Positions 899 through 22,585 of a DNA stretch of 42,178 nucleotides are shown one piece after another (position 1 is the stretch's first letter; each line of letters opens with the position of its first letter). The stretch spans positions 1-42,178 of IMG/VR virus record IMGVR_UViG_3300032315_001292; one strand, given 5' to 3'. A model generated the notes under the pieces. That model made no database searches. It was not told the origin of the DNA and saw only the letters and a program-made list of their open reading frames with translations. This stretch comes from a virus. A program made the position numbers and the translations under genes.

Positions 899-1735
899 AT
901 GATACTAAAATTAAATTCAAAAGGTGAAGATGTTAAAAAACTTCAAACTAAATTAGGTTTAACTCCTGATGGAATTTTTGGAGCAGGTACAGAGAAAAAA
1001 GTAAAAGAATGGCAATCAACAAACGGGCTGACCCCTGATGGTATTGTCGGTGATGGTACTTGGAGTAAAATGTTCCCAACAACATCAACCAAACCTGAAA
1101 TTGTTAAAGAAGATGTTGTAATTACCAAAACTTCCAATTTCAAATTAGAAAAATTAAAAGGTCATATACCAGACTCTGTAATTGCACAAATTCCAGATAC
1201 GGCTCAAAAATTTAATATAACAACACCTTTACGTCTTGCACATTTTTTAGCACAATGTGGCCATGAATCAGGTGGATTTAAACACATTCAAGAAAATTTA
1301 AACTATTCAGCCGACGGTCTAAAAAAGATTTTTCCAAAATATTTTCCAGGTAACTTAGCAGAATCCTACGCTAGAAATCCCGAAAAAATAGCATCGAAAG
1401 TGTATGGTGGAAGAATGGGTAATGGAGACGAAACAACAAAAGAAGGTTATAAATTCAGAGGTAGAGGATACATTCAATTAACAGGAAAACAAAACTATAC
1501 AAATTTTGCAAAATTTATTGGTGAAGATACCGTTGCTAATCCTGATTTAGTTGCTAACAAATATCCTTTGGCTTCTGCGGCATTTTTCTTTGATTCTAAC
1601 AAATTATGGGCTATTTGTGATAAAGGGGCTGACGACGCTACCGTTACTGCGGTAACAAAAAGAGTAAATGGGGGTGTTATTGGATTAAGTGATAGAATTA
1701 AACATTTCAAAGAATATTATTCATTGTTAAATTAA
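899..1735 (+). CDS. Endolysin: peptidoglycan-binding domain plus GH19 hydrolase
   Basis: A 278-residue lytic enzyme. Residues 3-60 are a peptidoglycan-binding type 1 domain (KLNSKGEDVKKLQTKLGL, then LTPDGIVGDGTWSKM). Residues about 85-278 are a glycoside hydrolase 19 (chitinase class I-like) domain. AHFLAQCGHESGGF holds the expected acid catalyst Glu123, and FRGRGYIQLTGKQNY and the C-terminal VTKRVNGG are typical GH19 blocks. There is no signal peptide or membrane segment, so release would depend on a holin, and small membrane proteins that could serve lie at 8.5-9.1 kb and 29.4 kb. The enzyme should cleave the glycan strand of host peptidoglycan at lysis. Family assignment is secure; exact bond specificity is not readable. 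Confidence 0.93.
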   Translation: MILKLNSKGEDVKKLQTKLGLTPDGIFGAGTEKKVKEWQSTNGLTPDGIVGDGTWSKMFPTTSTKPEIVKEDVVITKTSNFKLEKLKGHIPDSVIAQIPDTAQKFNITTPLRLAHFLAQCGHESGGFKHIQENLNYSADGLKKIFPKYFPGNLAESYARNPEKIASKVYGGRMGNGDETTKEGYKFRGRGYIQLTGKQNYTNFAKFIGEDTVANPDLVANKYPLASAAFFFDSNKLWAICDKGADDATVTAVTKRVNGGVIGLSDRIKHFKEYYSLLN

Positions 1736-2804: not shown

Positions 2805-3209
2805 TCAATCTTTCTCAAAAGATTTCGATAGTGCCTGTCTTAATGCCGAGCTAAATTCAGTTCGTTCGAACGGTAATTTATCATCTTGAAGTTGTAATAT
2901 AGTAGAAGAAACTGAGGTTTTGTTAGTTCCCTCCCCAATATATTCTTTACCATCCATCGTGATTTTGGTTTTAACAATTGTTTTTTTCTGTTTAAACTCA
3001 AATGGTCCTACTCTTATCCCCTTTGTCGGAGCTTCTATAGACAAAATTTCTACAGTGACAGGTCTCCCGTTTTCACATAGACTATAATTTTCATTTACAA
3101 GTTCTGTTACAATTTGTTTTGCTCCATAAGTTAATTTTGTATCAGGAACTCCGTTCATATGTGCAAAAGTTATTACACTTGATATAAAATAACACACTAA
3201 TGTATCCAT
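2805..3209 (-). CDS. Small exported hypothetical protein, last gene of the envelope operon
   Basis: This is a 134-residue protein. Its first 20 residues (MDTLVCYFISSVITFAHM) are hydrophobic and look like a weak signal or anchor. The rest is a predicted beta-rich domain (VTVEILSIEAPTKGI, VGPFEFKQKKTIVKTKIT, DGKEYIGEG) ending in an amphipathic helix (FSSALRQALSKS). The gene starts 2 bases beyond the stop of the PA14 gene and closes the minus-strand operon that includes the CsgG-like lipoprotein. I do not recognise the family. A periplasmic partner of the CsgG-like protein is possible from the context only. Confidence 0.6.
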   Translation of the reverse strand: MDTLVCYFISSVITFAHMNGVPDTKLTYGAKQIVTELVNENYSLCENGRPVTVEILSIEAPTKGIRVGPFEFKQKKTIVKTKITMDGKEYIGEGTNKTSVSSTILQLQDDKLPFERTEFSSALRQALSKSFEKD

Positions 3210-3211
3210 AA

Positions 3212-4357
3212 TTAATAATTTAAATTTGATTGATTGGTAAAACCAGGAGAAAGAATATAAAGATTAGTAATACCACCTGAACTTGGTGTAAATGTGTAAG
3301 TATTTTGTACTCCAGGAATAGATGTTCTTAAATCTGCAGATCCTGTATTCAAACTATCCCATTGTGATTCTGTAAACAACAAAGTTCTTTTTGTATAATT
3401 TAATCCGTTTATTCTTTTTGATATAGTATAAATATCATTTATTGTAATAAGATTATCACCACTAACCTCATATTTGTGATAATGATATGATTTGATTGGT
3501 GTTCTTTGTAAAACAATATCGTCAATTCCTACAAAATCAGCAGAGGATAAGTTTGACGTTGTGATTGGTATAACAACTTCAATATACCATTCATCCCCAT
3601 TTGATACTGATTGTGAAAATGAATATTGTCCCGAAGTATTTGTTGTAGATGTAGTTTGTTGAGTCCAAGGAGTAAAAGTAGATGCTAAAATACCTAATTC
3701 CGATGTTTGTAGAGAATGTGTAGATTGTCCTGGCCTTCTCCAAACTACAGTTAACCCATCACCACCACCATATTCTTGCATTCTTGCTCTGAACGTATAT
3801 TGAGTCCCTGCGACTAAATTTATATTTCCATAAATTGGTCCACTCATTCCGTGTCCACCATAATAACTAACCACAAATGTTCCACCAATAAATAAATCAC
3901 TACCATCATCAGAATTTATTCCAAAAGAATAGGTCCCAGTTACAACAGGTATAAAAGTTCCTGTAACTTCAACTGAATAGTATTCTCCATTATTTGGAAC
4001 TGTCGCTCCAGCATTTCTAATTGTTGTATATGTTGTAAAATTTAAACATGTAGTTGTTGATAATGTTCCTGACCATCTAAGTTGTGTATTTGAAAACGAA
4101 GTATTAAACAATCTATCAAATTCTAGTGTATTGGTTGGATATTGACCATATTGGGACGTACTACCATTTCCATTATGTGTTGAAAATATCTTAACATTAA
4201 GATTATTTGATAATGTGTTTATTGTCCCTCGTTTATACAATTTAGATGTTATATTTGGAACAGGAATATCATTTTCAGTTCTAATTGAACCTGAATGTGT
4301 AAATGTCTGTCCAAATATTGATATGGGTAATAATAAAAATAGTATTAATTTTTTCAC
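3212..4357 (-). CDS. Secreted PA14-domain protein (GTG start)
   Basis: About 381 residues when started at GTG 4357, whose GTGA overlaps the stop of the upstream gene. This start puts KKLILFLLLPISIFGQ at the N-terminus as a Sec signal peptide, whereas an ATG 33 bases further upstream would bury it behind a charged extension. Residues about 95-200 form a PA14-type domain: EYYSVEVTGTFIPVVTGTY, then FGINSDDGSDLFIGG, then YTFRARMQEYGGGDGLTV. PA14 domains bind carbohydrates in many adhesins and glycosidases. The C-terminal half is a beta-rich region with no recognised domain. I infer an exported surface or periplasmic carbohydrate-binding protein, either for virion entry or for changing the surface of the infected cell. 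Confidence 0.8.
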   Translation of the reverse strand: MKKLILFLLLPISIFGQTFTHSGSIRTENDIPVPNITSKLYKRGTINTLSNNLNVKIFSTHNGNGSTSQYGQYPTNTLEFDRLFNTSFSNTQLRWSGTLSTTTCLNFTTYTTIRNAGATVPNNGEYYSVEVTGTFIPVVTGTYSFGINSDDGSDLFIGGTFVVSYYGGHGMSGPIYGNINLVAGTQYTFRARMQEYGGGDGLTVVWRRPGQSTHSLQTSELGILASTFTPWTQQTTSTTNTSGQYSFSQSVSNGDEWYIEVVIPITTSNLSSADFVGIDDIVLQRTPIKSYHYHKYEVSGDNLITINDIYTISKRINGLNYTKRTLLFTESQWDSLNTGSADLRTSIPGVQNTYTFTPSSGGITNLYILSPGFTNQSNLNY

Positions 4358-5556
4358 AACAAAATTTTTGTTCCGGTTAAAACTTGCCAATTTTGAAAAC
4401 TTTGATTCAGTTGGTATACACCTGAAAAACTAACAGTCCATTTAAATTTATCTGTAACTTTAAAATCTGTATTTACCATAGGTATAATCAAAAATCCACT
4501 TTTATACCACTGACCAGCATAAAAGAAAATATATGGAGAATATACACCTAACCCTAAAAAATTCAACCCTATTGATTTACCCCCTTTAAAGTTGGTAAAT
4601 CCCCCACCTATTAAAGACCAATTACGAAAATCATTCTTATTGATTTGTCCAGTCGTATAAGTTGTTCCTCCCATCAAAGTAACCTTGTTTAACTTTTGAG
4701 CATTTAACAAAGATGCCGTCAAAAACCAATCAGTATTAAAATTTGTCATAAATGAAGTGGAGAATATTCCCATATACCTTTTGTATTTCAATGATCCATA
4801 CCCAGATAAATTTAAAATGTTTTGACCCGTCTGATAGTTAATGTTTATTCCTTTGATAAAGGTCTGTTCCGTGTTTATGTGTGTTAGTGACGTGTTAAAC
4901 CTAAAATTATCATTTCCACTTTTTGTAATATTAGAATCATTTCTTATTATAACAATATCTCCAGTAGCAATTAAAGCACCATTAGATACTTTAGAAGAAC
5001 TTTTACCACCACCTCCACCATTATTTTCACTCTCACCACCACTTGCAATTTGTTGGTTTTTATCATCGGCTGTTGTTATTTCACTACCACCTTCGGATGA
5101 GCTGTTGTTATTATCATTATTAGACCCACTACCGCTATTTCTCGGTGGAGGTGGAGGTGTAGGTATATTACCAACAGAACTTCCAATAGAACTAGCCATA
5201 GAGACCACAGATGTAATATTAACCACTGCGTTTGCGGTAACACTACCTAAAAAATTAGATACGTTGTTGGACGTTTCTACACCTTCTGAGGCACATGGAT
5301 TAGCACCTAAAGGTAAAGCGTCCTTGATTCCTTGAACCCATAGATTGTATGCACCAGCGTCTAACTCTGCGTATGTGAAAGACCTAAATTGTCCCGCATA
5401 AAACATAGTAACACTAGAACTTTGAGTTTCAAGTTGTACTGACTCAGTCTTTCCGTTACAAGGGTTAATATAAAAATAGGTGAAATTTTGAGCGTGAGTT
5501 CCCAAAATTCCACCTAATAAAAAGATGAATAGAAATAAAATTTTTTTACCAACCAT
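4354..5556 (-). CDS. Exported protein with Gly/Ser/Pro linker and barrel-like C-terminal half
   Basis: A 400-residue protein starting at an ATG that overlaps the last 11 bases of the CsgG-like gene. An N-terminal Sec signal (KKILFLFIFLLGGILGTHAQ) is followed by a domain with a Cys pair (NPCNGK, NPCASEG). Residues about 133-190 are low-complexity, with a run of five prolines and then Asn/Ser/Gly. The C-terminal half consists of alternating polar/hydrophobic strands (YGSLKYKRYMGIFSTSFMTN, WSLIGGGFTNFKGGKSIGLN) and ends in strand-like WQVLTGTKILL, consistent with an outer-membrane barrel or barrel-like fold. I do not recognise a family. In curli systems CsgG works with small exported partners, and this gene sits where such a partner would be. 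Confidence 0.7.
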   Translation of the reverse strand: MVGKKILFLFIFLLGGILGTHAQNFTYFYINPCNGKTESVQLETQSSSVTMFYAGQFRSFTYAELDAGAYNLWVQGIKDALPLGANPCASEGVETSNNVSNFLGSVTANAVVNITSVVSMASSIGSSVGNIPTPPPPPRNSGSGSNNDNNNSSSEGGSEITTADDKNQQIASGGESENNGGGGGKSSSKVSNGALIATGDIVIIRNDSNITKSGNDNFRFNTSLTHINTEQTFIKGININYQTGQNILNLSGYGSLKYKRYMGIFSTSFMTNFNTDWFLTASLLNAQKLNKVTLMGGTTYTTGQINKNDFRNWSLIGGGFTNFKGGKSIGLNFLGLGVYSPYIFFYAGQWYKSGFLIIPMVNTDFKVTDKFKWTVSFSGVYQLNQSFQNWQVLTGTKILL

Positions 5557-6238
5557 TTTGCTCTAGACGCTTTACAAGGTTCATCGTAGCGACCTCTAAA
5601 GCTTTCTGAGTAGCAATACCAACGGTTGATTGGTCAAAACCCATTGTTGGATTTTTAAAATAACCCTCACCAAATTGAGTTGATTGACCTTGACCTGATG
5701 CAACTATGTATTGTGAGTTGTCAACTTTTACTAATCTAATTTGAATTCCTATGATGGTTGTATTGGTCTTCTTAGACTTACCCTTATCGTAACTTTCAGC
5801 ATATGATACGGAGAAGTCGTAAATTTCGGCATAAGCGATAAACTTCGGTAATCTAATACCATCTGTTTTAAGTTTTGTTTTACCGTCATCTAAACCTTCA
5901 ATTTTCTTCTCCCATGCATCTAACATTTGATTTACAATTGCATCTTTTTCTTCTGCAAATTCAAATCTGTTAGTGTAAAGTAAGTTCTCAACAATTCTAT
6001 TCGAAACACCTAAACCCAATCTTTTCTCTCTCAATTCAGGAAAACTCTCCCAAAGATCTTTATTGACATTTAATTTAGAAAGTTGCACTGTTTGTTTTTT
6101 ACCAGTGTAAGTAGAAATACTTTCTAGCGTACGATCAGTTTTTTCAAAATCGGCTTGATACTGTTGAGTCGAAATCGTTGATTTACAACCTAACAATAAA
6201 AATAAATTTAGAGTCGAAATAATAATAATTTTTTTCAT
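5546..6238 (-). CDS. csgG-like: CsgG-like outer-membrane lipoprotein
   Basis: A 230-residue lipoprotein: the signal ends in LFLLLGC with Cys18 as the lipidated residue. The body has the CsgG layout, with VQLSKLNVNKDLW near the N-terminus, then helices (LRE.RLGLGVSNRIVENLLYTNRFEFAEEKDAI), then FIAYAEIYDFSVSY and TTIIGIQIRLVKVDN strands, and a C-terminal helix (ATQKALEVATMNLVKRL). CsgG forms the outer-membrane nonameric channel for curli subunits. It is unusual for a phage to carry one next to other exported proteins. The start ATG overlaps the stop of the upstream gene (ATGA). I infer a channel used to export the neighbouring proteins or a lysis or superinfection role. Confidence 0.82.
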   Translation of the reverse strand: MKKIIIISTLNLFLLLGCKSTISTQQYQADFEKTDRTLESISTYTGKKQTVQLSKLNVNKDLWESFPELREKRLGLGVSNRIVENLLYTNRFEFAEEKDAIVNQMLDAWEKKIEGLDDGKTKLKTDGIRLPKFIAYAEIYDFSVSYAESYDKGKSKKTNTTIIGIQIRLVKVDNSQYIVASGQGQSTQFGEGYFKNPTMGFDQSTVGIATQKALEVATMNLVKRLEQNGW

Positions 6239-6630
6239 TCTTCTTCTTCGTTTTCCAACTGTTTAGCTCTCAATCTTTTCATTCTTTCGGCAGGTGTTTC
6301 TTTTTTCTCTTCAGCAGGTACTACCGCAGGTTGTGTTGCTGGTTGAGCTGCTGGAGCAACTTCTCTAATTGTTTCTTTTTCTCTAATTACAGTAGTTCCA
6401 CCTCCACCTGAAGACGCATTACTCTGGTTGTTATTCTCCAAGTTAAGATTAATAACTGGAGCCGCAGCTGGTGCTACTTGTTCGGTTTTAGTTTCTTCAT
6501 TATCACTTCCACCACCAAACAAAATTGTGGAAATCCATACACCCCCACCTGTTACGATAGTGGCAAGTGTTCCTACGATGGTTTTCTTTAAACCACCCCA
6601 AGAGCCATCATTTTCTGTTTCTTCTGACAT
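6235..6630 (-). CDS. Small membrane protein with Pro/Ala-rich tail
   Basis: A 131-residue protein with one hydrophobic helix at residues about 17-40 (TIVGTLATIVTGGGVWISTI), then an Asn/Ser/Gly stretch, an Ala/Pro/Gln-rich region and a charged tail (AERMKRLRAKQLENEEEE). There is no cleavable signal. The stop overlaps the start of the CsgG-like gene by the ATGA overlap, so the two are coupled. The shape (one membrane anchor plus a long flexible Pro-rich tail) resembles inner-membrane spanin-like or TonB-like linkers, but no family motif is present. Confidence 0.65.
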   Translation of the reverse strand: MSEETENDGSWGGLKKTIVGTLATIVTGGGVWISTILFGGGSDNEETKTEQVAPAAAPVINLNLENNNQSNASSGGGGTTVIREKETIREVAPAAQPATQPAVVPAEEKKETPAERMKRLRAKQLENEEEE

Positions 6631-6634: not shown

Positions 6635-8536
6635 TTACTTTTTAATTATTTTATGAATCTTTTGTTTTTCATTGGTTGTTAATCTTACAAAGTAGAAACC
6701 TGGTTTTAAATTACTAACATCTATTTGTCTTGTGACAATTTCATTTTGAGTGACAAATTCCCTGTTTGTAAAGTATAACTTACCTGTGTAATCATAGATT
6801 TCGTAATATAAATATCCCCAATTTGTTTGATAGTAGTCAATACTCAAATTATCATTTACTGGGTTTGGATAAACTCTGAAACCGTTTACTAATTCATTGA
6901 CAAGTTCTCTTGCTCTTCTTCCATTGATAACTGTCGCATCAACAGGTGATGGAATAATATTTAGATCTTCGGCTTTATCGTTACCAGCGGCTTTGTTTGT
7001 GATTTTGATTGGTGATTGTTCCCAATTTGAATTCAAAATATTAAACTTGAAGTTGAACATTTGAGTTGAATTTGTTATTAAAGATGGTGACATTTTTGAC
7101 TCATGTCCTCCCCATAAAATTTCACCTGGTTTTGTGGAAATAAATGAGTTCCAAGAACTTGCCTCAGGACCAACATTAATTTCTGAAAATCTGAAAATAT
7201 TGGGATCGAATTGTAAACCTATTTGTGCCGCGCCAACTTTGTTACCATGAGTAATAAAAGTAACTCCAACGTTTACGGTGTTATCATCAGAGATCGTTAA
7301 TCTAGGTATTCTAAATTGTACTGAGTCTTGAATGTTTTGGTAAATAGTTCCCTCATCCAAAACATAAGAAGTCCCTACACTTGGGTTATTTACTCTTTGA
7401 ATTTGAAATGATAAATTATTTAATCCTGTATTGGTGACATCGCCCAAAACATATCCATAATATGTTATTCCATTAGTACCGTTCAGATTTTGGTCTATCA
7501 ATGTAGTTCCTATAATTCCTGTTTGGAAAATATTGGGATTGGCGATGATGGTATTATATTCATTTGTTGTGTAATATCTTACATTATACTCGTTTGCAAT
7601 AACAGGTGACCAAGATGAACGTCCTGTGGCTAAACGATTGAATATAAGGTAGGCATCAGATACCGATAAATTGCCACTTCTATTTACATCACCTTGTTGG
7701 AATTCATAGGACTGAGCAGTATCCGCATAAATACTCATGTCAGATAAACGGTAAGCATCAGTAATGTTTATAGATGAATTGTCTGATAAAGTGTCCAAAT
7801 TGGAAACTAATTTTATATTATAAAAGGAAGTGTCATATGGGATTTTTATAAGAGCGATACCATTTGTATTGGTTGTGAAACGATCTCCTCTAAAATAAAC
7901 CTGAGACGACTTAAGTTTGAAGTCGTAGGCAAATGGCATTTCAGGAGCTGGTGTACCATCAACATTCAACACTGTAATCGGAATACGAACGGTATCCATT
8001 TTAAATCTTCCACCATAGTTGAAAGTTCCCAAAGTGTTATCAAATCCATTCATTGTTGTTGCTATGTTAGAATAAGAAGGTGTACCCTGAACTCTCAATG
8101 AGTCAACTGAAGATGGATTGAATGTTGATGAATGCGGTAGTAAAATCTCAAAAACAGCTCCATCTGGAAAATCAAATATTGTTTGGTTTCCTGTATAAAT
8201 TGCAGTTGCGTTAACCCAACCAGGTTGTGTATAGTACGAACCATATTTTGTGGAAATTGTACTTACACTCGGACCCCATTTCACAATAGGAGTTTTGAAT
8301 GATTGAGGCGGATAAAAAAACCTTACTTGAAAACCAACATAGTTGGTCGTAGTTGGATTATGATAGTGTAAGTATACGACTGTCGTGTCATTGAGTATAC
8401 TACCCAACGTGAATACAGTATCTATCAAAAAATAAGGTGACGATGAATTGGGAGAAACTAATACTTCGTTTCTCCCATTCTGTCCATATACATTTACAGA
8501 AAGCAATAATAAAAATCCTAAAATTATTTTTTTCAT
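6635..8536 (-). CDS. Secreted protein with cohesin/dockerin-like domains and T9SS C-terminal sorting domain
   Basis: About 633 residues from ATG 8536; a longer frame exists, but this start exposes the signal peptide KKIILGFLLLLSVNVYGQ. Residues about 30-165 and 420-520 look like cohesin-type beta sandwiches (TVNVGVTFITHGNKVGAAQI, LQFDPNIFRFSEINVG). Residues about 282-305 are a dockerin-like calcium repeat (GDVNRSGNLSVSDAYLIF). The last 75 residues are a type A Por/T9SS sorting domain: FRVYPNPVNDNLSIDY, then EIYDYTGKLYF and DVSNLKPGFYFVRLTT, ending KIHKIIKK. Such domains send proteins through the type IX secretion system of Bacteroidota to the cell surface. I infer that the host T9SS exports this phage product during infection. 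Confidence 0.9.
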   Translation of the reverse strand: MKKIILGFLLLLSVNVYGQNGRNEVLVSPNSSSPYFLIDTVFTLGSILNDTTVVYLHYHNPTTTNYVGFQVRFFYPPQSFKTPIVKWGPSVSTISTKYGSYYTQPGWVNATAIYTGNQTIFDFPDGAVFEILLPHSSTFNPSSVDSLRVQGTPSYSNIATTMNGFDNTLGTFNYGGRFKMDTVRIPITVLNVDGTPAPEMPFAYDFKLKSSQVYFRGDRFTTNTNGIALIKIPYDTSFYNIKLVSNLDTLSDNSSINITDAYRLSDMSIYADTAQSYEFQQGDVNRSGNLSVSDAYLIFNRLATGRSSWSPVIANEYNVRYYTTNEYNTIIANPNIFQTGIIGTTLIDQNLNGTNGITYYGYVLGDVTNTGLNNLSFQIQRVNNPSVGTSYVLDEGTIYQNIQDSVQFRIPRLTISDDNTVNVGVTFITHGNKVGAAQIGLQFDPNIFRFSEINVGPEASSWNSFISTKPGEILWGGHESKMSPSLITNSTQMFNFKFNILNSNWEQSPIKITNKAAGNDKAEDLNIIPSPVDATVINGRRARELVNELVNGFRVYPNPVNDNLSIDYYQTNWGYLYYEIYDYTGKLYFTNREFVTQNEIVTRQIDVSNLKPGFYFVRLTTNEKQKIHKIIKK

Positions 8537-8543
8537 AATAGAA

Positions 8544-8894
8544 TCAGTTGACTTCGTTATTGGATGATAAAGAAACACCATCTTCTTCGTCCATTTTTTG
8601 AACTAACATTTTATCTCTATCTTCGTTTGAAAACCAAAAATCAATAACTTTATTCAAGTTACCAACAAAGGCACCTAAAAGAATAAGAAGTAACTCTTTC
8701 CATGCTTCTTCGATCGTTGCTTTAAACATTACTGCCATTACAATACCAAAAACGATAAAGAAAAAGGTAAATAAAATTAATAATGTAATTTTCCAACGAT
8801 TTGATTGCATTTGTTGTAACATAAAATTAAACCTTTGGTCGGGTTGTACATTTTGGAATTCCGTATTGTACAAAAGTGATTTAAATAATCCCAT
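8544..8894 (-). CDS. Two-span membrane protein
   Basis: A 116-residue protein with two hydrophobic helices: ITLLILFTFFFIVFGIVMAV (about residues 36-57) and ELLLILLGAFVGNLNKVIDF (about 67-88). A charged C-terminal tail follows (NEDRDKMLVQKMDEEDG). It lies 7 bases upstream of the T9SS cargo gene start and 1 base downstream of the holin-like gene. The size and topology fit a holin, antiholin or small virion-associated membrane protein. No specific family is recognised. Confidence 0.7.
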   Translation of the reverse strand: MGLFKSLLYNTEFQNVQPDQRFNFMLQQMQSNRWKITLLILFTFFFIVFGIVMAVMFKATIEEAWKELLLILLGAFVGNLNKVIDFWFSNEDRDKMLVQKMDEEDGVSLSSNNEVN

Positions 8895-8895: not shown

Positions 8896-9129
8896 TTATT
8901 CTGAATTTTTTTTCGTAAAAATTTTATCAGCAGACGCTAGTCCGAGTGCACCAAAAGCCAAAGCGGCTACGGACTGAATTAATGCGGGTGCTGGGGCCAC
9001 ATCAACAGTCGAGAATGAGTTATGGTACATTGTGACGCATAAAGAAATTGCACACATTATTCCAACAAATCTTTTGCTGGAAAATGATCCTTTTTCGTCT
9101 TGGAAAATTTGAGTTAAGAATTTTTTCAT
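8896..9129 (-). CDS. Holin-like small membrane protein
   Basis: About 77 residues from ATG 9129. The longer frame adds 12 residues that cross a TATAAATA box, so I choose the shorter start. KKFLTQIFQDEKGSFSSKRFVG is followed by a hydrophobic helix (IMCAISLCVTMYH) and then a second one (SVAALAFGALGLASADKIF) before a lysine-rich tail. The 'KG..SSKRF.G' lead and two-helix hairpin are typical of small phage holin-like proteins of Bacteroidota and Proteobacteria phages. With the GH19 endolysin it could form the lysis set. Another holin-like gene lies at 29.4 kb. Confidence 0.68.
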   Translation of the reverse strand: MKKFLTQIFQDEKGSFSSKRFVGIMCAISLCVTMYHNSFSTVDVAPAPALIQSVAALAFGALGLASADKIFTKKNSE

Positions 9130-9186
9130 AATCTTGGTCGGTTGTCTATAAATATATCCAACCATTCAAAATTATAGTATTTTACA

Positions 9187-11303: not shown

Positions 11304-11705
11304 ATGATAAATAGTCCAAAAAAAATTTTTATCAGACCTTCACATGGTAAAGGTTTGGGTGTTTTTGCTAGTGAGAGTATATCTCAAGGTGAAACTATCG
11401 AGGATTGTCCTTTGTTATCACTACCGATTAAAAAAGGTGAAAGTTCTAGTCTCTTGTTGGATTACCGATTCAATTATCCTTTAGGTTTAGATTTTGAAGA
11501 ACAAGTTATAGCATTAGGTTACGGTAGTTTGTATAATCATTCAGACACGCCCAATGCAATGTGGATCCATCATCCAAATTTAAAAAAAGTTTTTAGGTTT
11601 GTAGCAATCAAAGAGATTGCCCCAGGTGAAGAAATTTTGGTATTTTACGGAGACGAAACTTATTGGTCTGACGGAAGGATAAGTTCAAGGACTAAATTAG
11701 TTTGA
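11304..11705 (+). CDS. SET-domain protein (candidate lysine methyltransferase)
   Basis: A 133-residue minimal SET domain. It has the N-terminal SET block (SHGKGLGVFASESISQGETI), the pseudoknot core (GYGSLYNHSDTPNA, matching the family NHS.x.PN) and the C-terminal block (EIAPGEEILVFYGDETYW, matching E-I..GEE(I/L)...YG..YW). SET proteins move a methyl group from S-adenosylmethionine to protein lysines. Only the SET core is present, with no pre- or post-SET zinc cluster, as in other viral and bacterial SET proteins. The substrate is unknown. It lies alone on the plus strand between minus-strand genes. Confidence 0.9.
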   Translation: MINSPKKIFIRPSHGKGLGVFASESISQGETIEDCPLLSLPIKKGESSSLLLDYRFNYPLGLDFEEQVIALGYGSLYNHSDTPNAMWIHHPNLKKVFRFVAIKEIAPGEEILVFYGDETYWSDGRISSRTKLV

Positions 11706-14092: not shown

Positions 14093-15364
14093 TCACCCAA
14101 TATCTGATCGTGATGTATACCACCCTCCCATTGGGTAATTGTATGAAGTTAACACGGTACCTTTACCCATTTCTTCTATTTCATTCAAAAGTTTTTCTAG
14201 TTCGTTTATCAATTCGTCAGTTTTACCTGAATTATATTCGATCCTGATTAACTTTTCAGGTTCTCTAGTGTTTGGATTTTTAACGAATTCATTTTTAATT
14301 TTATCATTAGTAATTTGAGAGTCTAAATCACTACCTTTTATTATTGTAAAATGAAAAGCACCATCAATTTCTATAGCTATTTTAGATTTTGGTAAATAAA
14401 AATCAAATTTTAATTTTCTACATCGTCCTTTTAAGTTAGGTTTTCCTATACAATCTTCAAATTCTTTGGGAGAATCAAACTCTATATTTTTATTTTTAAA
14501 ATATTCCTTGACTATATTTTCACCTTTAGACTCATAACATTTTGGACACCCCGATCCACTCAAATGATCTTTGGGCATTACAGACCAAGCACCATGTTTT
14601 GGGCAAACTATTTTAACTTTTGTCTTCGCATCAACATAATCGGTATTTGTGTAGTCATAAATTAATTTTCCTTCTTTTTGATGAATACCTTCTGCAATGA
14701 TTTTATCTAACCAAGTGTACTTAGTATCTCTTCTCCCTCCACAAACTGGACAACCTACTTTTTTATTCGGGTTGACGTGGTTACTAGGTGAAACTGTAAA
14801 ATAACCATGTGGCTCTTCTTCAAAATTATTCAAATTTCCGTCTGGAAAGTTGTTTGATGACACAGGACAAAAAAGTTTGATCGGTGGACTAGTTTTTAGT
14901 TTTCCTAGAAATTTAATTTTATCATAACCCGTATATTTTAAAGTCCCGTCAGGATTTGACTGGTACTTTTTTACTTTTTCCATAAACCTTTCTTTTCTTT
15001 CTTCAGGTGTTTCTTTTTCACATTCTGGACAACCTTTTGGAGGATACGTTTTTCCGTGAGATAACTTTTTATAAAGATGAGAAAATGGAGTACGATAGAA
15101 ATCACCGTGATATGGACACGTAATTTTTATTTTTTTAGTTTTTTCTATCCCATCCCATGTAATAACATTTTCTGCTGGGTAAATATATCGAGGGTTTTTA
15201 TGTATAGTTCTTGCAGTTTGAACAAATTGAGAATACGGTATCTGGGTACTCTCATTTAAAAGATCTATTTTTGATTCCCAATTAATAACTTTTTTTATCA
15301 ATTTAACCAAATCGTTTTCGGTCAATCTGATAATTTTTGGAGAATAATTTGATAAATTTTTCAT
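14093..15364 (-). CDS. Tagged nuclease: zinc-ribbon repeats plus PD-(D/E)XK domain
   Basis: A 423-residue protein. The N-terminus (IIRLTENDLVKLIKKVI) is the same short helix found on other tagged proteins here. Three treble-clef-like repeats follow: ITCPYHGDFYRTPFSHL...GCPEC, LFCPVSSNN...VGCPVCGG and IVCPKHGAWSVMPKDHL...GCPKC. Such repeats bind DNA in homing-type and Vsr-like endonucleases. The C-terminal domain has KGENIVKEYF, then KLKFDFYLPKSKIAIEIDGAFHF, matching the PD-(D/E)XK core (E..., FD, EID). It is therefore probably a DNA endonuclease. The tag suggests it may be carried in the head and delivered with the DNA rather than being an ordinary homing enzyme. Confidence 0.8.
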   Translation of the reverse strand: MKNLSNYSPKIIRLTENDLVKLIKKVINWESKIDLLNESTQIPYSQFVQTARTIHKNPRYIYPAENVITWDGIEKTKKIKITCPYHGDFYRTPFSHLYKKLSHGKTYPPKGCPECEKETPEERKERFMEKVKKYQSNPDGTLKYTGYDKIKFLGKLKTSPPIKLFCPVSSNNFPDGNLNNFEEEPHGYFTVSPSNHVNPNKKVGCPVCGGRRDTKYTWLDKIIAEGIHQKEGKLIYDYTNTDYVDAKTKVKIVCPKHGAWSVMPKDHLSGSGCPKCYESKGENIVKEYFKNKNIEFDSPKEFEDCIGKPNLKGRCRKLKFDFYLPKSKIAIEIDGAFHFTIIKGSDLDSQITNDKIKNEFVKNPNTREPEKLIRIEYNSGKTDELINELEKLLNEIEEMGKGTVLTSYNYPMGGWYTSRSDIG

Positions 15365-18378: not shown

Positions 18379-18463
18379 GCCAGAGTGTTGGAATAGGCAG
18401 ACAAGATTGACTTAAAATTAATTGGGCTAAGCGCTCGTGTGGGTTCGAGTCCCATCTCTGGTA
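18379..18463 (+). tRNA. tRNA-Leu(UAA)
   Basis: Acceptor GCCAGAG/CTCTGGT, a Leu-type D arm, anticodon loop CTTAAAA (UAA) on an ATTGA/TTAAT stem, a long variable arm and T arm GTGGGTTCGAGTCCCAT. All parts are intact, in contrast to the Leu-like element that follows. Confidence 0.93.
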
Positions 18464-18510
18464 CAATATTGGATCCTTCATTGGTTAAACCCAACGGGGT
18501 CCAATATTTT

Positions 18511-18626
18511 AGTCAGGTGGCGGAATGGTAGACGCTAATTTTCAAAATGTGAGGTATAGATACTGGTTAAGTACACGCCGGGAACAGATACAAAATACCA
18601 TACAGGTTCGAATCCTGTCCTGACTA
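18511..18626 (+). ncRNA. tRNA-like RNA, AGTCAGG family, 66-nt insert in place of anticodon arm
   Basis: Acceptor AGTCAGG/CCTGACT, D arm GGCGGAATGGTAGACGC and T arm ACAGGTTCGAATCCTGT are perfect. Bases 18536-18601 replace the anticodon arm. They hold ATTT-TCA-AAAT and GGTA/TACC pairings but no 5 bp stem with a 7-base anticodon loop. This is one of eight such elements. Confidence 0.75.
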
Positions 18627-18687
18627 CTTTTTGGGGGATTGATTTTTTTTGAAGTATGGCTATATTTATAATAAATCCACCGAAAAA

Positions 18688-19029
18688 CCCATCGGTCTTT
18701 AGCCGATGGGATGTAAGGAGTGAATTGACTAAAATAAACCAAATGAAAAACATCCAAATTAAAGGATATAAACAAACATCGTCAGGAACTGACGATTACA
18801 GACGTGGAGATGAAATAAGACCAACTATTGTTGGCACAATCAATGAAGCGTCCAAAATTCTGAACTTAGTTTCAGAAACCCAACCATCTTTAGTGGTTGG
18901 GTAGTTCAAACAAACAAAAGTACGTTATGCTTTCACAAAAACTCTATATCAGTTTTAATCCGTCATGGTTCGATAGAACAGCCATAGGATATGACTTTTA
19001 CGGGTTTGTTTGATATGTACTCCTTACAT
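18688..19029 (+). ncRNA. IS605-derived structured RNA (omega-RNA-like remnant)
   Basis: Two hairpins with the same loop TCTTTAG bracket the element. The first is CCCATCGG/CCGATGGG at 18688-18710. The second, CCCAACCA/TGGTTGGG at 18879-18901, is identical to the right end of the TnpB genes at 37.87 and 41.76 kb. Between them the last 50 codons of TnpB remain. Downstream, two nested inverted repeats (ATGTAAGGAGT with ACTCCTTACAT, 18711-18721/19019-19029; TCAAACAAAC with GTTTGTTTGA, 18906-18915/19004-19013) close a further stem-loop. The 3' part of tnpB plus the right end is where omega RNAs are encoded, so this may be a guide-RNA gene without its nuclease. It is co-transcribed with tRNA-Leu. 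Confidence 0.55.
18755..18904 (+). pseudogene. tnpB: C-terminal remnant of tnpB
   Basis: About 49 codons read KGYKQTSSGTDDYRRGDE, then IRPT.VGTI.EASKILNLVSE, ending QPSLVVG and TAG. They match the C-terminus of the TnpB at the right edge nearly residue for residue. The RuvC and zinc-finger parts are gone, so no nuclease is made. The frame has stayed open, which suggests that RNA sequence is conserved or the loss is recent. Confidence 0.8.
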
Positions 19030-19042
19030 ATGAAAAAAAATT

Positions 19043-19070
19043 AAACCCGAAGAAATTCGGGTTTTTTTTT
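19043..19070 (+). terminator. Intrinsic terminator of the first RNA-array unit
   Basis: A 9 bp stem AAACCCGAA/TTCGGGTTT (19043-19051, 19056-19064) with a GAAA tetraloop and a run of T. It separates the tRNA-Leu/omega-like unit from the main array. Confidence 0.85.
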
Positions 19071-19103
19071 TCGTAAAAAGGATGAAACTAATAAAATCAT
19101 TCG

Positions 19104-19111
19104 TACCTTTG
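19104..19111 (+). promoter_or_regulatory. Promoter -7 element of the main RNA array
   Basis: TACCTTTG matches TAnnTTTG. No good TTTG is seen 19-21 bases upstream, but the element sits between the terminator and the second boxA, as expected for a second array promoter. Confidence 0.5.
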
Positions 19112-19146
19112 TAATGTTGATGGTTGAGAGATCAACAATCACAACT

Positions 19147-19160
19147 TGTTCTTTGACATC
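19147..19160 (+). promoter_or_regulatory. boxA-like antitermination site, second copy
   Basis: TGTTCTTTGACATC, followed by TTGGAAA, closely matches leaders of Bacteroidota rRNA operons. An inverted repeat (GGTTGAGAGATCAACAATC) precedes it. It should allow readthrough of the 5.5 kb untranslated array that follows. Confidence 0.65.
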
Positions 19161-19204
19161 TTGGAAAAAATTGAAATGTTTTGAGTCGTGAGACTTCAAA
19201 ATTT

Positions 19205-19287
19205 AGTCAGGTGGCGCAAATGGTAGACGGTTGGTGCTGGGCAGTGGCTCCTCCAAAGGCATACAGGTTCGAATCCTGTCCTGACGA
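19205..19287 (+). ncRNA. tRNA-like RNA, AGTCAGG family, 32-nt middle without anticodon stem
   Basis: It has the length of a normal tRNA-Leu (83 nt) and the family acceptor and T arm, but the bases where the anticodon stem should be do not pair at all. The acceptor ends CCTGACG (one mismatch) and the D stem has one mismatch. Confidence 0.65.
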
Positions 19288-19307
19288 CAATTACAAAAAC
19301 TAATAAT

Positions 19308-19407
19308 TTCTCCAACCAATGAAATATAGTGTAGTTATCATTGGACAAATGCTTGAAATAGCATTCAACGTTGATAGGGTGTGTATTAAGTTTTACACCT
19401 AGGAGAA
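19308..19407 (+). ncRNA. Cloverleaf-like structured spacer RNA
   Basis: A terminal helix TTCTCC/GGAGAA (19308-19313, 19402-19407) encloses three hairpins: CCAATG/CATTGG (19316-19344), AATGCT/AGCATT (19348-19365) and GGTGT/ACACC (19378-19399). This is a four-way junction of tRNA size without any tRNA consensus bases. It ends 5 bases before tRNA-Gln. Confidence 0.5.
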
Positions 19408-19412
19408 GGAAC

Positions 19413-19483
19413 TGTCCCCTCGTCTAACGGCAGGACAGCAGACTTTGATTCTGCTTATCGAGGTTCGAATCCTTGGGGGACAA
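19413..19483 (+). tRNA. tRNA-Gln(UUG)
   Basis: Acceptor TGTCCCC/GGGGACA, D arm with CTAACGGCAGG, anticodon loop CTTTGAT on GCAGA/TCTGC, T loop TTCGAAT. Confidence 0.92.
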
Positions 19484-19496
19484 CATAAAAAAATAT

Positions 19497-19592
19497 AGTC
19501 AGGTGGCGGAATGGTAGACGCATCGAAAGATAGGTACGGTATGGAGCCCGATTAAATAATCCTAATTACAGGTTCGAATCCTGTCCTGACTA
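19497..19592 (+). ncRNA. tRNA-like RNA, AGTCAGG family, 46-nt insert
   Basis: Family acceptor, D arm and T arm are perfect. The insert 19522-19567 starts with an ATC-GAAA-GAT tetraloop hairpin and has TAGG/CCTA pairing; no anticodon arm. Confidence 0.75.
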
Positions 19593-19594
19593 CC

Positions 19595-19679
19595 AAAGAA
19601 ACAAGTAAAACGCAAACGCACAGTCCCTTGATGCATCAGGTGAGGCACACACTGTATACTGGATGACCTCTGTTTCTTT
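19595..19679 (+). ncRNA. Structured spacer RNA with 9 bp terminal helix
   Basis: AAAGAAACA (19595-19603) pairs with TGTTTCTTT (19671-19679). Inside are ACAGT/ACTGT (19620-19655) and a TGATGCATCA palindrome. A T run follows. Confidence 0.45.
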
Positions 19680-19686
19680 TTTAATC

Positions 19687-19805
19687 AGTCAGGTGGCGGA
19701 ATGGTAGACGCTAAGAGTTTCTTTAATGAGGTGGTCCTAGAGTAGCTGACACACTTAGATACAACAAGGTAACTACTCGCACAGGTTCGAATCCTGTCCT
19801 GACTA
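19687..19805 (+). ncRNA. tRNA-like RNA, AGTCAGG family, 69-nt insert
   Basis: Family acceptor, D arm and T arm are perfect. The insert 19712-19780 contains GAGTAG/CTACTC closing a 27-nt loop; no anticodon stem-loop. Confidence 0.75.
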
Positions 19806-19810
19806 CAAAT

Positions 19811-19852
19811 CTTAGGAGTAATTAACCTAAGACTGAGAGGTTATAAACTCTC
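19811..19852 (+). ncRNA. Two adjacent hairpins between tRNA-like genes
   Basis: CTTAGG/CCTAAG (19811-19831) and GAGAG/CTCTC (19835-19852). They may act as processing signals. Confidence 0.35.
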
Positions 19853-19855
19853 GAT

Positions 19856-19968
19856 TGGCTATGGTGTAATGGAGCACAGAGAAACTGAGTATGAAAGGGA
19901 TTACGGGAATCTTCCCGCAAACATCAGAAATGGGACTCAGGATTATGGTTCGAATCCATTTTAGTCAA
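19856..19968 (+). ncRNA. tRNA-like RNA of a second acceptor type, long insert
   Basis: Acceptor TGGCTAT pairs with TTAGTCA (six of seven, one G-U). The D arm is GTG/CAC with TAATGGAG and the T arm is TATGGTTCGAATCCATT. In place of the anticodon arm is an insert of about 65 nt with CTGAGT/ACTCAG closing it and a GGGAA/TTCCC hairpin inside. It shows that the insert feature is not limited to one acceptor family. Confidence 0.6.
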
Positions 19969-19989
19969 CAAGCCGTCTTTTTTTCTTGT

Positions 19990-20050
19990 CTACCGTGGAC
20001 GTGGATTGTTGAGACGTAAAAGTAACAATCGATTGATTAGGGAACGGTAG
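19990..20050 (+). ncRNA. Structured spacer RNA (nested hairpin)
   Basis: CTACCGT/ACGGTAG (19990-19996, 20044-20050) encloses GATTGTT/AACAATC (20004-20010, 20024-20030). Flanking T runs are at 19977 and 20080. Confidence 0.45.
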
Positions 20051-20138
20051 GATACAGGTTCACTAGACGAAGGTAGAAGTTTTTTTTTGATAGATGGGTT
20101 TGAGTTCTTTATAACAACAAACCAACTATAATTCAGTA

Positions 20139-20169
20139 GGGACAAATGGGAGCGGCTTACTCCCGTCCC
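20139..20169 (+). ncRNA. Nested GC-rich hairpin
   Basis: GGGAC/GTCCC and GGGAG/CTCCC stack with an AAAT bulge, 6 bases before the next tRNA-like element. The bases 20051-20138 before it hold a T9 run and no clear gene. Confidence 0.45.
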
Positions 20170-20174
20170 GAAAT

Positions 20175-20277
20175 AGTCAGGAGCCCATTGGTTGGGGGCA
20201 CCTCCCCAAGGTTGAGTAACAGGTGATGCTGACTCTTTATGGTAAAGCCGAAACAGGTTCGAATCCTGTCCTGACTG
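20175..20277 (+). ncRNA. tRNA-like RNA, AGTCAGG family, divergent D region
   Basis: Acceptor and T arm match the family exactly, but the D arm is replaced too. A TTGGGG/CCCCAA hairpin (20192-20209) and CTTTA/TAAAG lie in the 71-nt middle. Only the acceptor-T domain of a tRNA is kept. Confidence 0.65.
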
Positions 20278-20279
20278 CA

Positions 20280-20416
20280 AAGACAATGGTTTTCCCCATT
20301 CAACGGATGTCGACAATCTAGAATGGAATCGGAATTCAGCACCCTCAGCCGAGGCCTCGTAAAACTACGATTAAGCTGTTAAGATTGGAGAGAGACGGGT
20401 ACTCCATCATTGTCTT
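20280..20416 (+). ncRNA. Structured spacer RNA with 9 bp terminal helix and internal branches
   Basis: AAGACAATG (20280-20288) pairs with CATTGTCTT (20408-20416). Inside, CAGC/GCTG encloses CCTC-AGCC-GAGG and CGTA-AAAC-TACG hairpins. It ends 4 bases before tRNA-Glu. Confidence 0.5.
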
Positions 20417-20420
20417 ATTT

Positions 20421-20492
20421 GGTCGGTTCATCTAGAGGTTAGGATACAAGATTTTCATTCTTGTCACATGGGTTCGATTCCCATACCGACTA
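20421..20492 (+). tRNA. tRNA-Glu(UUC)
   Basis: Acceptor GGTCGGT/ACCGACT, anticodon loop TTTTCAT on CAAGA/TCTTG, T arm CATGGGTTCGATTCCCA. Confidence 0.93.
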
Positions 20493-20494
20493 CC

Positions 20495-20564
20495 TTGGAG
20501 GTATAGGGGTAAACCCTTGAGGCGAAGTACAAGCCATAGTCACTGAACGTAAACTGACCTCCAA
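20495..20564 (+). ncRNA. Structured spacer RNA with 8 bp terminal helix
   Basis: TTGGAGGT (20495-20502) pairs with ACCTCCAA (20557-20564). GGG/CCC and AGT/ACT hairpins lie inside. Confidence 0.45.
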
Positions 20565-20568
20565 ACTA

Positions 20569-20654
20569 ATTAGAAGTGTCGCAATACGCGTTTCAATCTA
20601 ATTGATAGACGTATCAATGAAGATGTTCGAGGGTGAAAATCCCAAGCTTCTAAT
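20569..20654 (+). ncRNA. Cloverleaf-like structured spacer RNA
   Basis: ATTAGAAG (20569-20576) pairs with CTTCTAAT (20647-20654). Inside, in tRNA order: CGC-AATAC-GCG (20580-20590), TTGATA-GACG-TATCAA (20602-20617) and GGG-TGAAAAT-CCC (20631-20643) with a 7-base loop in the T-arm position. The usual GG and TTCRA consensus bases are absent. Confidence 0.5.
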
Positions 20655-20657
20655 CCT

Positions 20658-20892
20658 CCATTCTTAGTGTTATGTGGTAAAACACGTTGACTCTTACATC
20701 GCCTGGAGTGCTACAAATAAAAATGTGAGCTGTATTGAAATAGCCAGTTATAAGCCAACATAAAGTCGTTGGGTACAGACGGAGTAATTAACCAGAGTAT
20801 AGGCAGGAACTGTGACGATATAGCAAATACCCATTTGAGTATCCACTCCCGAATGTAAGACGAGTAAGTTGGTTCGAACCCAGCAGAATGGA
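20658..20892 (+). ncRNA. Giant tRNA-like RNA (235 nt) with about 170-nt insert
   Basis: Acceptor CCATTCT/AGAATGG is perfect; bases 8-9 are TA; D arm GTGT/ACAC holds TGTGGT; T arm GTTGG-TTCGAAC-CCAGC is good. Where the anticodon arm should be, CTTACAT (20693-20699) pairs with ATGTAAG (20853-20859). GGAGTG/CACTCC continue the helix inward around about 130 nt. It is far longer than any tRNA and lacks the tag-reading frame expected of tmRNA. Confidence 0.6.
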
Positions 20893-21105
20893 CAATGAGT
20901 AAGAGATACTCAGAGTCTTTGGTCTAAGACTTAAACAATAGACCCGCTTAAACTGGACAGCGGAACGCCAGTTCTTAGGGTCAAAGGACCAATCACAGCT
21001 CCTCCTTCGTAGTGTGACTTTTTTAATAGGGGATGCCCTGTAGGTTTCATCAATAGGAAAAAACCGGAATGACTACTCACTTGGAATCTCAGAGTGGGGA
21101 AACAC
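20893..21105 (+). other. Hairpin-rich spacer with possible weak terminator
   Basis: Contains AGTCTT/AAGACT (20914-20931), GACCC/GGGTC (20941-20982) enclosing AACTGG/CCAGTT, and TCACA/TGTGA (20993-21017) followed by a T6 run that could be a weak terminator. The last 20 bases repeat as the leader of the 24.3 kb element (GAATCTCAGAGT, then GGGAAA). No coding frame is convincing. Confidence 0.4.
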
Positions 21106-21190
21106 AGTCAGGTGGCGGAATGGATAGACGCGGCCCTATCAGGGGTAGAGGCGAAAGAAACTCATACAGGTTCGAATCCTGTCCTGACTA
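21106..21190 (+). ncRNA. tRNA-like RNA, AGTCAGG family, 34-nt middle
   Basis: Family acceptor, D and T arms are present. The middle has CAG behind U33, as a tRNA-Leu(CAG) would. However, CCCT-ATC-AGGG folds the anticodon into a stem and the canonical anticodon stem does not form, so it may be a decayed tRNA-Leu close to the ancestor of the family. Confidence 0.65.
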
Positions 21191-21436
21191 CACAGTGTTG
21201 GCTACAATCACCGAGTAGGGTAGTACACTTAAATAAAACAAGAACGGGGAAAACACCGAATCTGCAGATAACGGCGAAGTACCAACGAACGGTGTAATGG
21301 AATCAATTCAATACCTCTACGTGGTGGTTCTAGAAACATTCTTTGGAATGGCTAAATTGAAAAAGTTACATGGGTCGCTGGCAGAGTTGGTCTATTACAT
21401 CTGTATTGTTTTATACATTTCTTTATATTTATATCT
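21191..21436 (+). other. Spacer with tRNA-Ser-like 5' half interrupted by a homing endonuclease
   Basis: CACCG and CGGTG at about 21210 and 21288 could close another structured RNA. At 21372-21408 GGGTCGC, TG, GCAGAGTTGGTCTATTACA and CTGTATTG read like the 5' half of a Ser-type tRNA, but no matching 3' half follows before the endonuclease gene. A T arm with acceptor end lies on the other side at 22216-22240. Confidence 0.4.
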
Positions 21437-22156
21437 ATGGAAATATGTTCGTATGGTTGTGGTAAAGAAGCTAGATTCTTTTTTAAGACTGGAAATAAAT
21501 GTTGTGAAAAATCGCCTAATTCTTGTGAAAGCAAAAGGAATAAAGATTCTGAAAAGAAAAAAGGAAAATTTAAAGGAACACCATATTGGCAATTACCTGA
21601 AGACAAAAGAAAATTACCCTTTATACCTTGGAATAAAGGTAAAGTTGGGGTTTATACCGAAGAATACAGAAAAAAAATTAGTAATTCTTTAAAAGGAAGA
21701 ACTGATATTGGTAGAGCATCTACAGATGAAAAAGAAACCGAAAGAAAGAAAAAAATATCAGAAACAATGAAAAAAAATCCATTATGTGGAGGTTTAAGAA
21801 AATGTGGTGGTAGAGGAAAAAAAGGTAGATATAAAGGATATTGGTGTGATAGTAGTTGGGAATTGGCTTGGGTTATTTATAATTTAGAACACAATATCAA
21901 ATTTGAAAGAAACAATATTGGTTTTGAATATGAATATAAAGGACAAAAAAGAAAATATTATCCTGATTTTTTAATAACAGAAAACTATTATGAAATAAAA
22001 GGTAGGAGAAGTTTCGAAAAACTTGATGCTGTAAATAAAGAAAAAATTAGACAATTTAAGTTTAATCTAAAAGTCTTATATGAGAAGGATATGAAACCAT
22101 ATCTAACTTATGTTATAGAAAAATACGGAAAAGATTATACTAAATTGTATGAATAA
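21437..22156 (+). CDS. Homing endonuclease with NUMOD3-like repeats and PD-(D/E)XK-like domain
   Basis: A 239-residue basic protein inside the RNA array. The N-terminus is a zinc-binding segment (CSYGCGKEARFFFK...CCEKSPNSC). Residues about 72-115 hold two NUMOD3-type repeats (YTEEYRKKISNSLKGR, KKKISETMKKNP). The C-terminal domain has GYWCDSSWELAWVIY, then YEYKGQKRKYYPDFLITENY, then YEIKGRR; the E...PDF...EIK pattern is the PD-(D/E)XK nuclease core used by some phage homing endonucleases. It is flanked by tRNA-like half-genes, as if it had landed in a tRNA gene. A self-splicing intron around it was looked for but not established. Confidence 0.85.
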   Translation: MEICSYGCGKEARFFFKTGNKCCEKSPNSCESKRNKDSEKKKGKFKGTPYWQLPEDKRKLPFIPWNKGKVGVYTEEYRKKISNSLKGRTDIGRASTDEKETERKKKISETMKKNPLCGGLRKCGGRGKKGRYKGYWCDSSWELAWVIYNLEHNIKFERNNIGFEYEYKGQKRKYYPDFLITENYYEIKGRRSFEKLDAVNKEKIRQFKFNLKVLYEKDMKPYLTYVIEKYGKDYTKLYE

Positions 22157-22184
22157 AGAGAATATCCGAATGAACAAGGGTTCC

Positions 22185-22241
22185 AACTTAAAATCAGTTG
22201 GGTAGTAAAAGCTCCGTGAGTTCGAATCTCATTCCTTCCTC
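22185..22241 (+). pseudogene. 3' fragment of a tRNA (Leu/Ser type)
   Basis: CCAAC-TTAAAATCA-GTTGG resembles an anticodon arm with UAA, followed by a variable arm and T arm GTGAGTTCGAATCTCAT and TCCTTCC. No matching acceptor 5' strand (GGAAGGA) precedes it, so it is a fragment, possibly the 3' exon of the gene split by the endonuclease. Confidence 0.45.
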
Positions 22242-22248
22242 ACATTAT

Positions 22249-22321
22249 GCTCTCGTGGCGCAACGGTTAGCGCAAGATGCTTATACCATCGAGGTTACAG
22301 GTTCAAATCCTGTCGGGAGTA
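22249..22321 (+). tRNA. tRNA-Ile(UAU)
   Basis: Acceptor GCTCTCG/CGGGAGT, D arm GCGCAACGGTTAGCGC, anticodon loop CTTATAC (UAU), T arm ACAGGTTCAAATCCTGT. The anticodon stem has one mismatch at its base. Confidence 0.88.
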
Positions 22322-22326
22322 CAAAA

Positions 22327-22400
22327 GACCTCATAGCTTAATTGGTAAAGCACCTGGCTTTTAACCAGGGGAGTCCAGAGTTCGAGTCTCGGTGGGGTCA
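22327..22400 (+). tRNA. tRNA-Lys(UUU)
   Basis: Acceptor GACCTCA/TGGGGTC, anticodon loop CTTTTAA on CCTGG/CCAGG, T loop TTCGAGT. Confidence 0.93.
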
Positions 22401-22402
22401 CT

Positions 22403-22491: not shown

Positions 22492-22496
22492 TTTAT

Positions 22497-22578: not shown

Positions 22579-22585
22579 CAAACAT

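Follow-up and report, generated by a model that had tools for sequence, protein, structure and literature searches.

Why should a phage gene carry the sorting signal of the type IX secretion system (T9SS) of a bacterial cell, and what would the phage gain from placing the product on the surface of that cell? The question arises from a gene on the minus strand of a single IMG/VR virus record of 42,178 bases, the whole of which was analysed and is referred to here as the window. The initial annotation had regarded the product as T9SS cargo that combines cohesin-like and dockerin-like domains, may assemble into a lattice by itself, and may block receptors or act as an adhesin.

Domain architecture of the scaffold protein

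The gene is real, and its start is better placed at 8536 than at 8581, where the ORF as called (6635–8581, minus strand) begins, because homologues of the product, here named C, align from the Met at 8536. C was dissected with Pfam and NCBIfam, through its homologues, and by fold search with an AlphaFold (AF2) model that was built from 31 homologues and has a pLDDT of 78. From the N- to the C-terminus it consists of a signal peptide, a first cohesin-like domain, a dockerin-like module, a second cohesin (cohesin 2) and a type A sorting tail.

6635–8536, minus strand: C, scaffold protein of 633 aa with putative T9SS export
8480–8536, minus strand: signal peptide of C (MKKIILGFLLLLSVNVYGQ)
7991–8476, minus strand: N-terminal beta-sandwich of C, putatively cohesin-like
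7412–7831, minus strand: dockerin-like module of C, two F-hand-like repeats plus an extension
6917–7342, minus strand: cohesin 2 of C
6638–6883, minus strand: type A T9SS C-terminal sorting domain of C

The Sec signal and the Por C-terminal sorting domain claimed initially were both borne out. The former is recognisable by inspection, and its Met and hydrophobic core are aligned in the homologues. The latter scores 54.2 bits with Por_Secre_tail (PF18962; cut-off, 27) in Pfam and 45.7 bits with TIGR04183 (cut-off, 23) in NCBIfam, and residues 551–633 of the model match the C-terminal domains (CTDs) of T9SS cargo, namely those of NucA in 8glk (Z 10.7, 29% identity) and mirolase (Z 10.6). Por_Secre_tail and Cohesin are both matched in all 31 non-redundant clusters of C homologues, which range from 25 to 90% in identity. 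Judging from the coding sequences, the sorting tail is under purifying selection, with dN/dS values of 0.10–0.23 that are within the range of the other C domains.

The two internal claims held in part. Cohesin 2 is matched by Pfam (PF00963, 28.1 bits; cut-off, 24.1; one copy only), and residues 404–540 of the model resemble cohesins with Z up to 15.7, reached with 6kgf at an rmsd of 2.3 over 135 residues. That the N-terminal domain is also cohesin-like is plausible from the strands of the model and from a weak hhalign match to cohesin 2 (E 0.0012 over only 37 columns, compared with 0.04–0.06 for the same domain in two control comparisons). The match suggests a cohesin nature, so that the presence of two cohesins is at most likely. 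As for the dockerin-like calcium repeat, two F-hand-like repeats, DTLSDNSSINITDAYRL and DVNRSGNLSVSDAYLIFNRL, can be recognised by inspection, but the Dockerin_1 score of C (13.8 bits) lies under the cut-off of 22.9; among the 31 homologues, Dockerin_1 reaches E ≤ 0.01 in four. The same module is related to the C-terminal module of a neighbouring gene product, G (hhalign 97.8%).

A natural dissection of C is provided by vB_FspM_immuto_2-6A, hereafter immuto, a cultured 160-kb phage of Flavobacterium sp. LMO8 in which the scaffold is split into two secreted polypeptides.

L015:11598–13422: immuto gp014 and gp015, split scaffold

Of the parts of C, gp014 holds the N-terminal domain together with the dockerin-like module, and gp015 has the cohesin and the T9SS tail behind a signal peptide of its own. 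Immuto also encodes a protein, gp013, that joins a C-type lectin to the docking module. The domain split suggests an anchor that offers a docking port for a lectin, and it serves as a natural test of which domains need linkage. A lattice of C alone, as proposed initially, is disfavoured by this split and by the docking module common to C and G.

A syntenic cassette of eight genes

C belongs to a syntenic cassette of eight genes, A to H, that is accompanied in the window by an endolysin gene.

8896–9165, minus strand: A, small membrane protein, possibly holin-like
8544–8894, minus strand: B, protein with two TM-like segments, possibly holin-like
6235–6630, minus strand: D, short protein with a Gly/Thr-rich hydrophobic stretch and a Pro/Ala/Glu-rich tail
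5546–6238, minus strand: E, predicted CsgG-like outer-membrane protein
4354–5556, minus strand: F, secreted protein with a low-complexity middle and a barrel-like C-terminal part
3212–4390, minus strand: G, secreted lectin (PA14) with a dockerin-like C-terminal module
2805–3209, minus strand: H, small protein related to E (CsgG-like)
899–1735, plus strand: endolysin (phrog_181, 234.9 bits), neighbour of the cassette

C occurs at 77–99% identity in 13 viral contigs, where its neighbours A to H keep the same order and the flanks differ. A search with E reached 419 viral contigs, from which 79 loci were fetched. C and D, the latter recognised by alignment, stand beside E in 66 of the 69 loci with enough upstream sequence, and F and H, the conserved last gene, are found in every E locus with enough downstream sequence (66/66). 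The cassette occurs in dozens of the sampled phage contigs and probably in hundreds.

By its predicted fold, E is a CsgG-like protein. Foldseek ranked CsgG first for the E model, which is of low confidence (pLDDT 63.6), with 4uv2 at E 3.6e-8 and TM-scores near 0.4, and VIA-align gave Z 10.7 over 143 residues to CsgG, other CsgG-like lipoproteins being about equal. The Pfam CsgG model matches none of 23 E-family members, which have diverged too far for it, unlike CsgG of the pelagiphage HTVC008M, which scores 180 bits with the same library; hhalign of E against that CsgG is weak (2.9%). E and H are related to each other (hhalign 90.7%, E 1.2e-6). E has a lipobox, LLLGC, in the window, but its immuto counterpart has an ordinary signal peptide without a lipobox, and therefore lipid anchoring of E is not general. 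F looks outer-membrane-like; it had no meaningful match in PDB and no similarity to CsgF of HTVC008M. Profiles of E, F and H retrieved nothing useful from PDB sequences, nor did PHROGs for the cassette proteins. No Pfam match to Curlin_rpt or CsgF was obtained in the cassette proteins of the window, the C homologues or the lectin-slot proteins, and a curli system proper is ruled out by the lack of curlin repeats.

In relatives, A is located inside the cassette or immediately next to it, at times adjoining the endolysin gene, and B, whose membrane segments appear in its KD profile, is near or interleaved with cassette genes; these positions make a holin-like function conceivable for both. The endolysin gene adjoins the cassette in many relatives, and an endolysin or holin gene lies within 2.5 kb on either side in 18 of 31 cluster representatives. 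This adjacency fits late expression and equally a role in lysis. Because of it, the main rival explanation is a lysis module, in which the CsgG-like E, joined by F, H and three small membrane proteins (A, B and D), would breach the outer membrane or time lysis in place of spanins, and C and G would stabilise or target the module. The location of A and B near or among the cassette genes speaks for this explanation, and such a role was proposed for phage CsgGF in Melnitz (PMC9004378). Nevertheless, neither a T9SS tail nor cohesin/dockerin docking nor swappable lectins would be expected of a lysis module, and in immuto the endolysin–holin pair is about 28 kb from the cassette, so that we regard this explanation as unlikely. 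The receptor-blocking or adhesin role foreseen by the initial annotation fits the cassette, although that annotation had missed the partner genes, namely dockerin-tagged lectins and a CsgG-like pore, as well as the adjoining lysis genes.

Exchange of the lectin domain

In G, a signal peptide is combined with a PA14 domain (48.7 bits in Pfam) and the C-terminal docking module; a T9SS tail is absent. The kind of lectin in this slot differs between phages: among 39 lectin-slot proteins, gp013 of immuto included, 13 match Lectin_C (C-type lectin), 10 PA14 and 4 LamG. The slot matches lectin or docking profiles in 53 of 66 loci, about a fifth having no match.

Comparison of related cassettes locates the variation more finely. 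Between the window and one relative (L007), cassette DNA is about 61–86% identical, rises to 95–100% over the PA14 part of G and drops again at the docking module. The reverse pattern is seen between two other records (L010 and L013): the cassettes are mostly 97–100% identical, the lectin part of G falls to 52–64% or becomes unalignable, and identity recovers over the docking module. A shallower dip, to 83–93%, affects the N-terminal half of C. From these alignments, the lectin part of G is exchanged by recombination over a constant docking tail, a pattern that a display scaffold predicts.

Carriers of the cassette and their hosts

The carriers of the cassette are phages. Of 12 records tested, 8, immuto among them, encode a member of the T4-like Gp23 capsid family; the other four may be fragments. 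In 84,980 cellular genomes, E had four matches, of which two lie on phage-like contigs that also carry cassette genes and the others at bacterial loci; plasmids gave no match to E. An Ignavibacteriales MAG (L096:9974–13844) has an E-like gene and a second E/H-like gene followed by secreted-looking ORFs, and this locus may represent a cellular source of the E/H family. Proteins with a cohesin and a T9SS tail are familiar in Bacteroidota, and C might accordingly be a bacterial gene for a surface protein that was picked up by chance, or the DNA might belong to a host and have been wrongly binned as viral. This is scarcely credible in view of the synteny conserved across many independent viral contigs and of the cultured phage among the carriers, and host contamination in particular is rejected given the rarity of E in cellular genomes together with the capsid genes.

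Searches for C itself added few phages. No C homologue outside immuto was found in the annotated phage collection, where tblastn with the T9SS tail alone also detected no further confident phage. A search of viral structures with C revealed no new function; it retrieved a full-length homologue from an uncultured Caudovirales phage (A0A6J5M064), annotated as 'secretion system C-terminal sorting domain', and two more proteins whose lengths match the immuto halves.

That a phage protein uses the T9SS of its host, the central claim of the initial annotation, is well supported at the sequence level by the tail in all 31 clusters, by its dN/dS, and by the hosts. Flavobacterium, the host genus of immuto, is known for T9SS, and both bacterial MAGs that hold the cassette-bearing phage-like contigs encode SprA, the T9SS translocon. 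The accompanying statement that T9SS exists only in Bacteroidota is slightly too narrow; the system extends over the Fibrobacteres-Chlorobi-Bacteroidetes according to one report (PMC7468147).

The immuto cassette, gp013 to gp019, adjoins ribonucleotide reductase genes, and its position bears on the possibility that C and G end up as decoration or adhesion fibres on the virion and not on the cell. C-type lectin folds do occur in phage receptor-binding proteins. However, the Sec signals on C, F and G and the T9SS tail on C are unlike virion proteins, which are assembled in the cytoplasm, and the replication/ribonucleotide reductase genes beside the immuto cassette place it outside the tail region; a virion location is thus very improbable.

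A distant branch with a PorV/PorQ-family gene

In two loci of a distant branch (L067 and L069), E, F and H are present, and the protein encoded upstream of them, about 950 aa long, has a T9SS tail and matches cohesin weakly. It is followed by a gene of the PorV/PorQ family, an outer-membrane family of T9SS, which scores 98.6 bits in L067 and 95.1 bits in L069 against a curated cut-off of 90.

L067:8181–9035 and L069:8568–9413, also L109–L125: PorV/PorQ-family gene

The gene was found in 17 viral loci, in most of which the upstream protein ends in a T9SS-like tail. This branch strengthens the link of the cassette to T9SS.

Additional T9SS candidates were noticed in cassette-bearing phage records. 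One family, of about 520 aa, has a type A tail that exceeds the NCBIfam cut-off in one record and falls short of it in two; another candidate is a cargo of type B (CHU_C, 68 bits).

L106:2814–4370 (minus strand), L107:2241–3815, L108:2380–3930 and L108:3951–5552: further T9SS candidates

Other features of the window

The window contains a full TnpB/OrfB_IS605 gene at 36700–37896 (plus strand) and a second, truncated TnpB with a TNB domain at 41757–42155 (minus strand). The end of an ORF at 18656–18904 (plus strand) resembles the TnpB C-terminus, and all three have a similar C-terminal sequence ending in PSLVVG. An array of 24 predicted tRNA genes occupies 18379–24687 of the plus strand, with few long ORFs between them. 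Several unrelated proteins (31180–31899, 32578–33819, 14093–15364 and others) have a similar short N-terminal stretch, like KLTESELxxIIxKVLxEQ, which is possibly a targeting or processing leader. A small SET-domain protein (49.8 bits) is encoded at 11304–11705 (plus strand).

Comparison with known systems

Phage-encoded T9SS cargo is known from Cryophage, a phage of Bacteroidetes, whose cargo includes a PA14-domain protein (PMC7468147). Like the cassette, this phage has type A cargo, a PA14 protein included, that varies between phage variants, and superinfection exclusion was suggested for it; unlike in the cassette, the tail is on an enzyme or on the PA14 gene itself, and the excerpts of the description mention neither a cohesin/dockerin scaffold nor a CsgG-like pore (PMC7468147). 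In crAss-like phages, T9SS-tailed proteins occur near BACON genes (PMC6949934).

Phage CsgG/CsgF, belonging to a T8SS or curli operon, are known from pelagiphages and Melnitz (PMC7029224, PMC9599517, PMC9004378). Such an operon resembles the cassette in having a CsgG-like outer-membrane protein with secreted partners. The cassette differs in that the scanned proteins have no CsgF or curlin repeats by Pfam, a T9SS-tailed cohesin/dockerin scaffold taking the place of the amyloid. In the curli operon of HTVC008M, CsgF scores 59.6 bits next to the CsgG noted above, and gp018 (L095:10638–11963), annotated only as hypothetical, joins PA14 (27.7 bits) to curlin repeats (33.1 bits); the word PA14 is absent from a paper on phage curli (PMC9599517). 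Thus, two unrelated phage groups pair a CsgG-like exporter with a PA14 lectin on a surface-anchored carrier, which is an amyloid in HTVC008M, whose host is of a different phylum, and would be T9SS-anchored in the cassette.

The pelagiphage operon, with its CsgG-like pore and PA14 lectin, has the same kind of parts, and it lends some weight to another explanation, sibling capture, in which a sticky scaffold would let infected cells capture surfaces or siblings that are still uninfected and thereby help progeny to find hosts; this was put forward for pelagiphage curli in two reports (PMC7029224, PMC9599517). It is set back by Melnitz cultures, in which no clumping was seen (PMC9004378), and by the little time that would be left if adjacency to lysis genes means late expression. 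We consider it doubtful.

Two further systems are similar in principle to a display of lectins. In the cellulosome, as in the cassette, cohesins are on an anchored scaffold (scaffoldin) and dockerins are on exchangeable carbohydrate-binding subunits; the cassette is, by contrast, phage-encoded and T9SS-anchored, with lectins in place of enzymes and a cohesin–dockerin binding that is putative. Llp of T5 and Cor of T1 are exported phage proteins that mask the receptor of their own phage and spare progeny from debris, as is proposed for the cassette; each is one small lipoprotein binding FhuA or BtuB (PMC4728585, PMC13164509), whereas the cassette would build a multi-protein lectin scaffold with proposed glycan targets, and no common sequence is claimed.

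Phage T9SS cargo and phage curli pores are therefore known separately. In the open-access literature searched, no report was found to join T9SS, CsgG and phage, and the one paper there that brings together cohesin, dockerin, phage and viral contigs concerns Clostridium genomes; a report of the combined scaffold was not found. As a whole, the module stands a fair chance of representing a novel type of surface structure built by phages.

A model for lectin display on the infected cell

C is probably the cell-surface anchor of a phage-encoded module by which lectins are displayed at the surface. First, Sec would carry C, F, G, H and the lipoprotein E across the inner membrane, as their signal sequences indicate. 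Second, the type A tail of C, which sequence and model agree upon, would direct the protein into the host T9SS and so across the outer membrane, where it would become surface-anchored. Third, E with F and H would form a CsgG-like export complex in the outer membrane, in keeping with the predicted fold of E, and G, lacking a T9SS tail, would exit there. Fourth, G would dock by its dockerin-like module on a cohesin of C, the common docking module and the cohesin being recognisable in the sequences. Fifth, the displayed lectin, PA14, C-type lectin or LamG, exchangeable as its swapping suggests, would bind surface glycans of the infected cell. The purpose is more doubtful. By analogy with Llp of T5, the likeliest one is receptor masking late in infection, which would block superinfection and prevent loss of progeny to debris, a suggestion made with reserve.

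Tentatively, and with a little less reserve than for that purpose, a widespread group of Bacteroidota phages may build on infected cells a dedicated surface organelle composed of a T9SS-anchored cohesin scaffold and a CsgG-like exporter, which jointly display exchangeable lectins tagged with dockerin. The surface specificity of the infected cell would then evolve by domain swapping, like that of tail fibres, and some of the phages would bring their own PorV/PorQ-family component. This reading is testable in a cultured pair, immuto and Flavobacterium strain LMO8, and the conserved docking module is a candidate surface-display tool in Bacteroidota. Lectin display would also offer a concrete common denominator for the unexplained CsgG/curli genes of phages, and a lytic phage may, by combining two secretion routes, remodel the exterior of its host cell by means of a modular scaffold for lectins.
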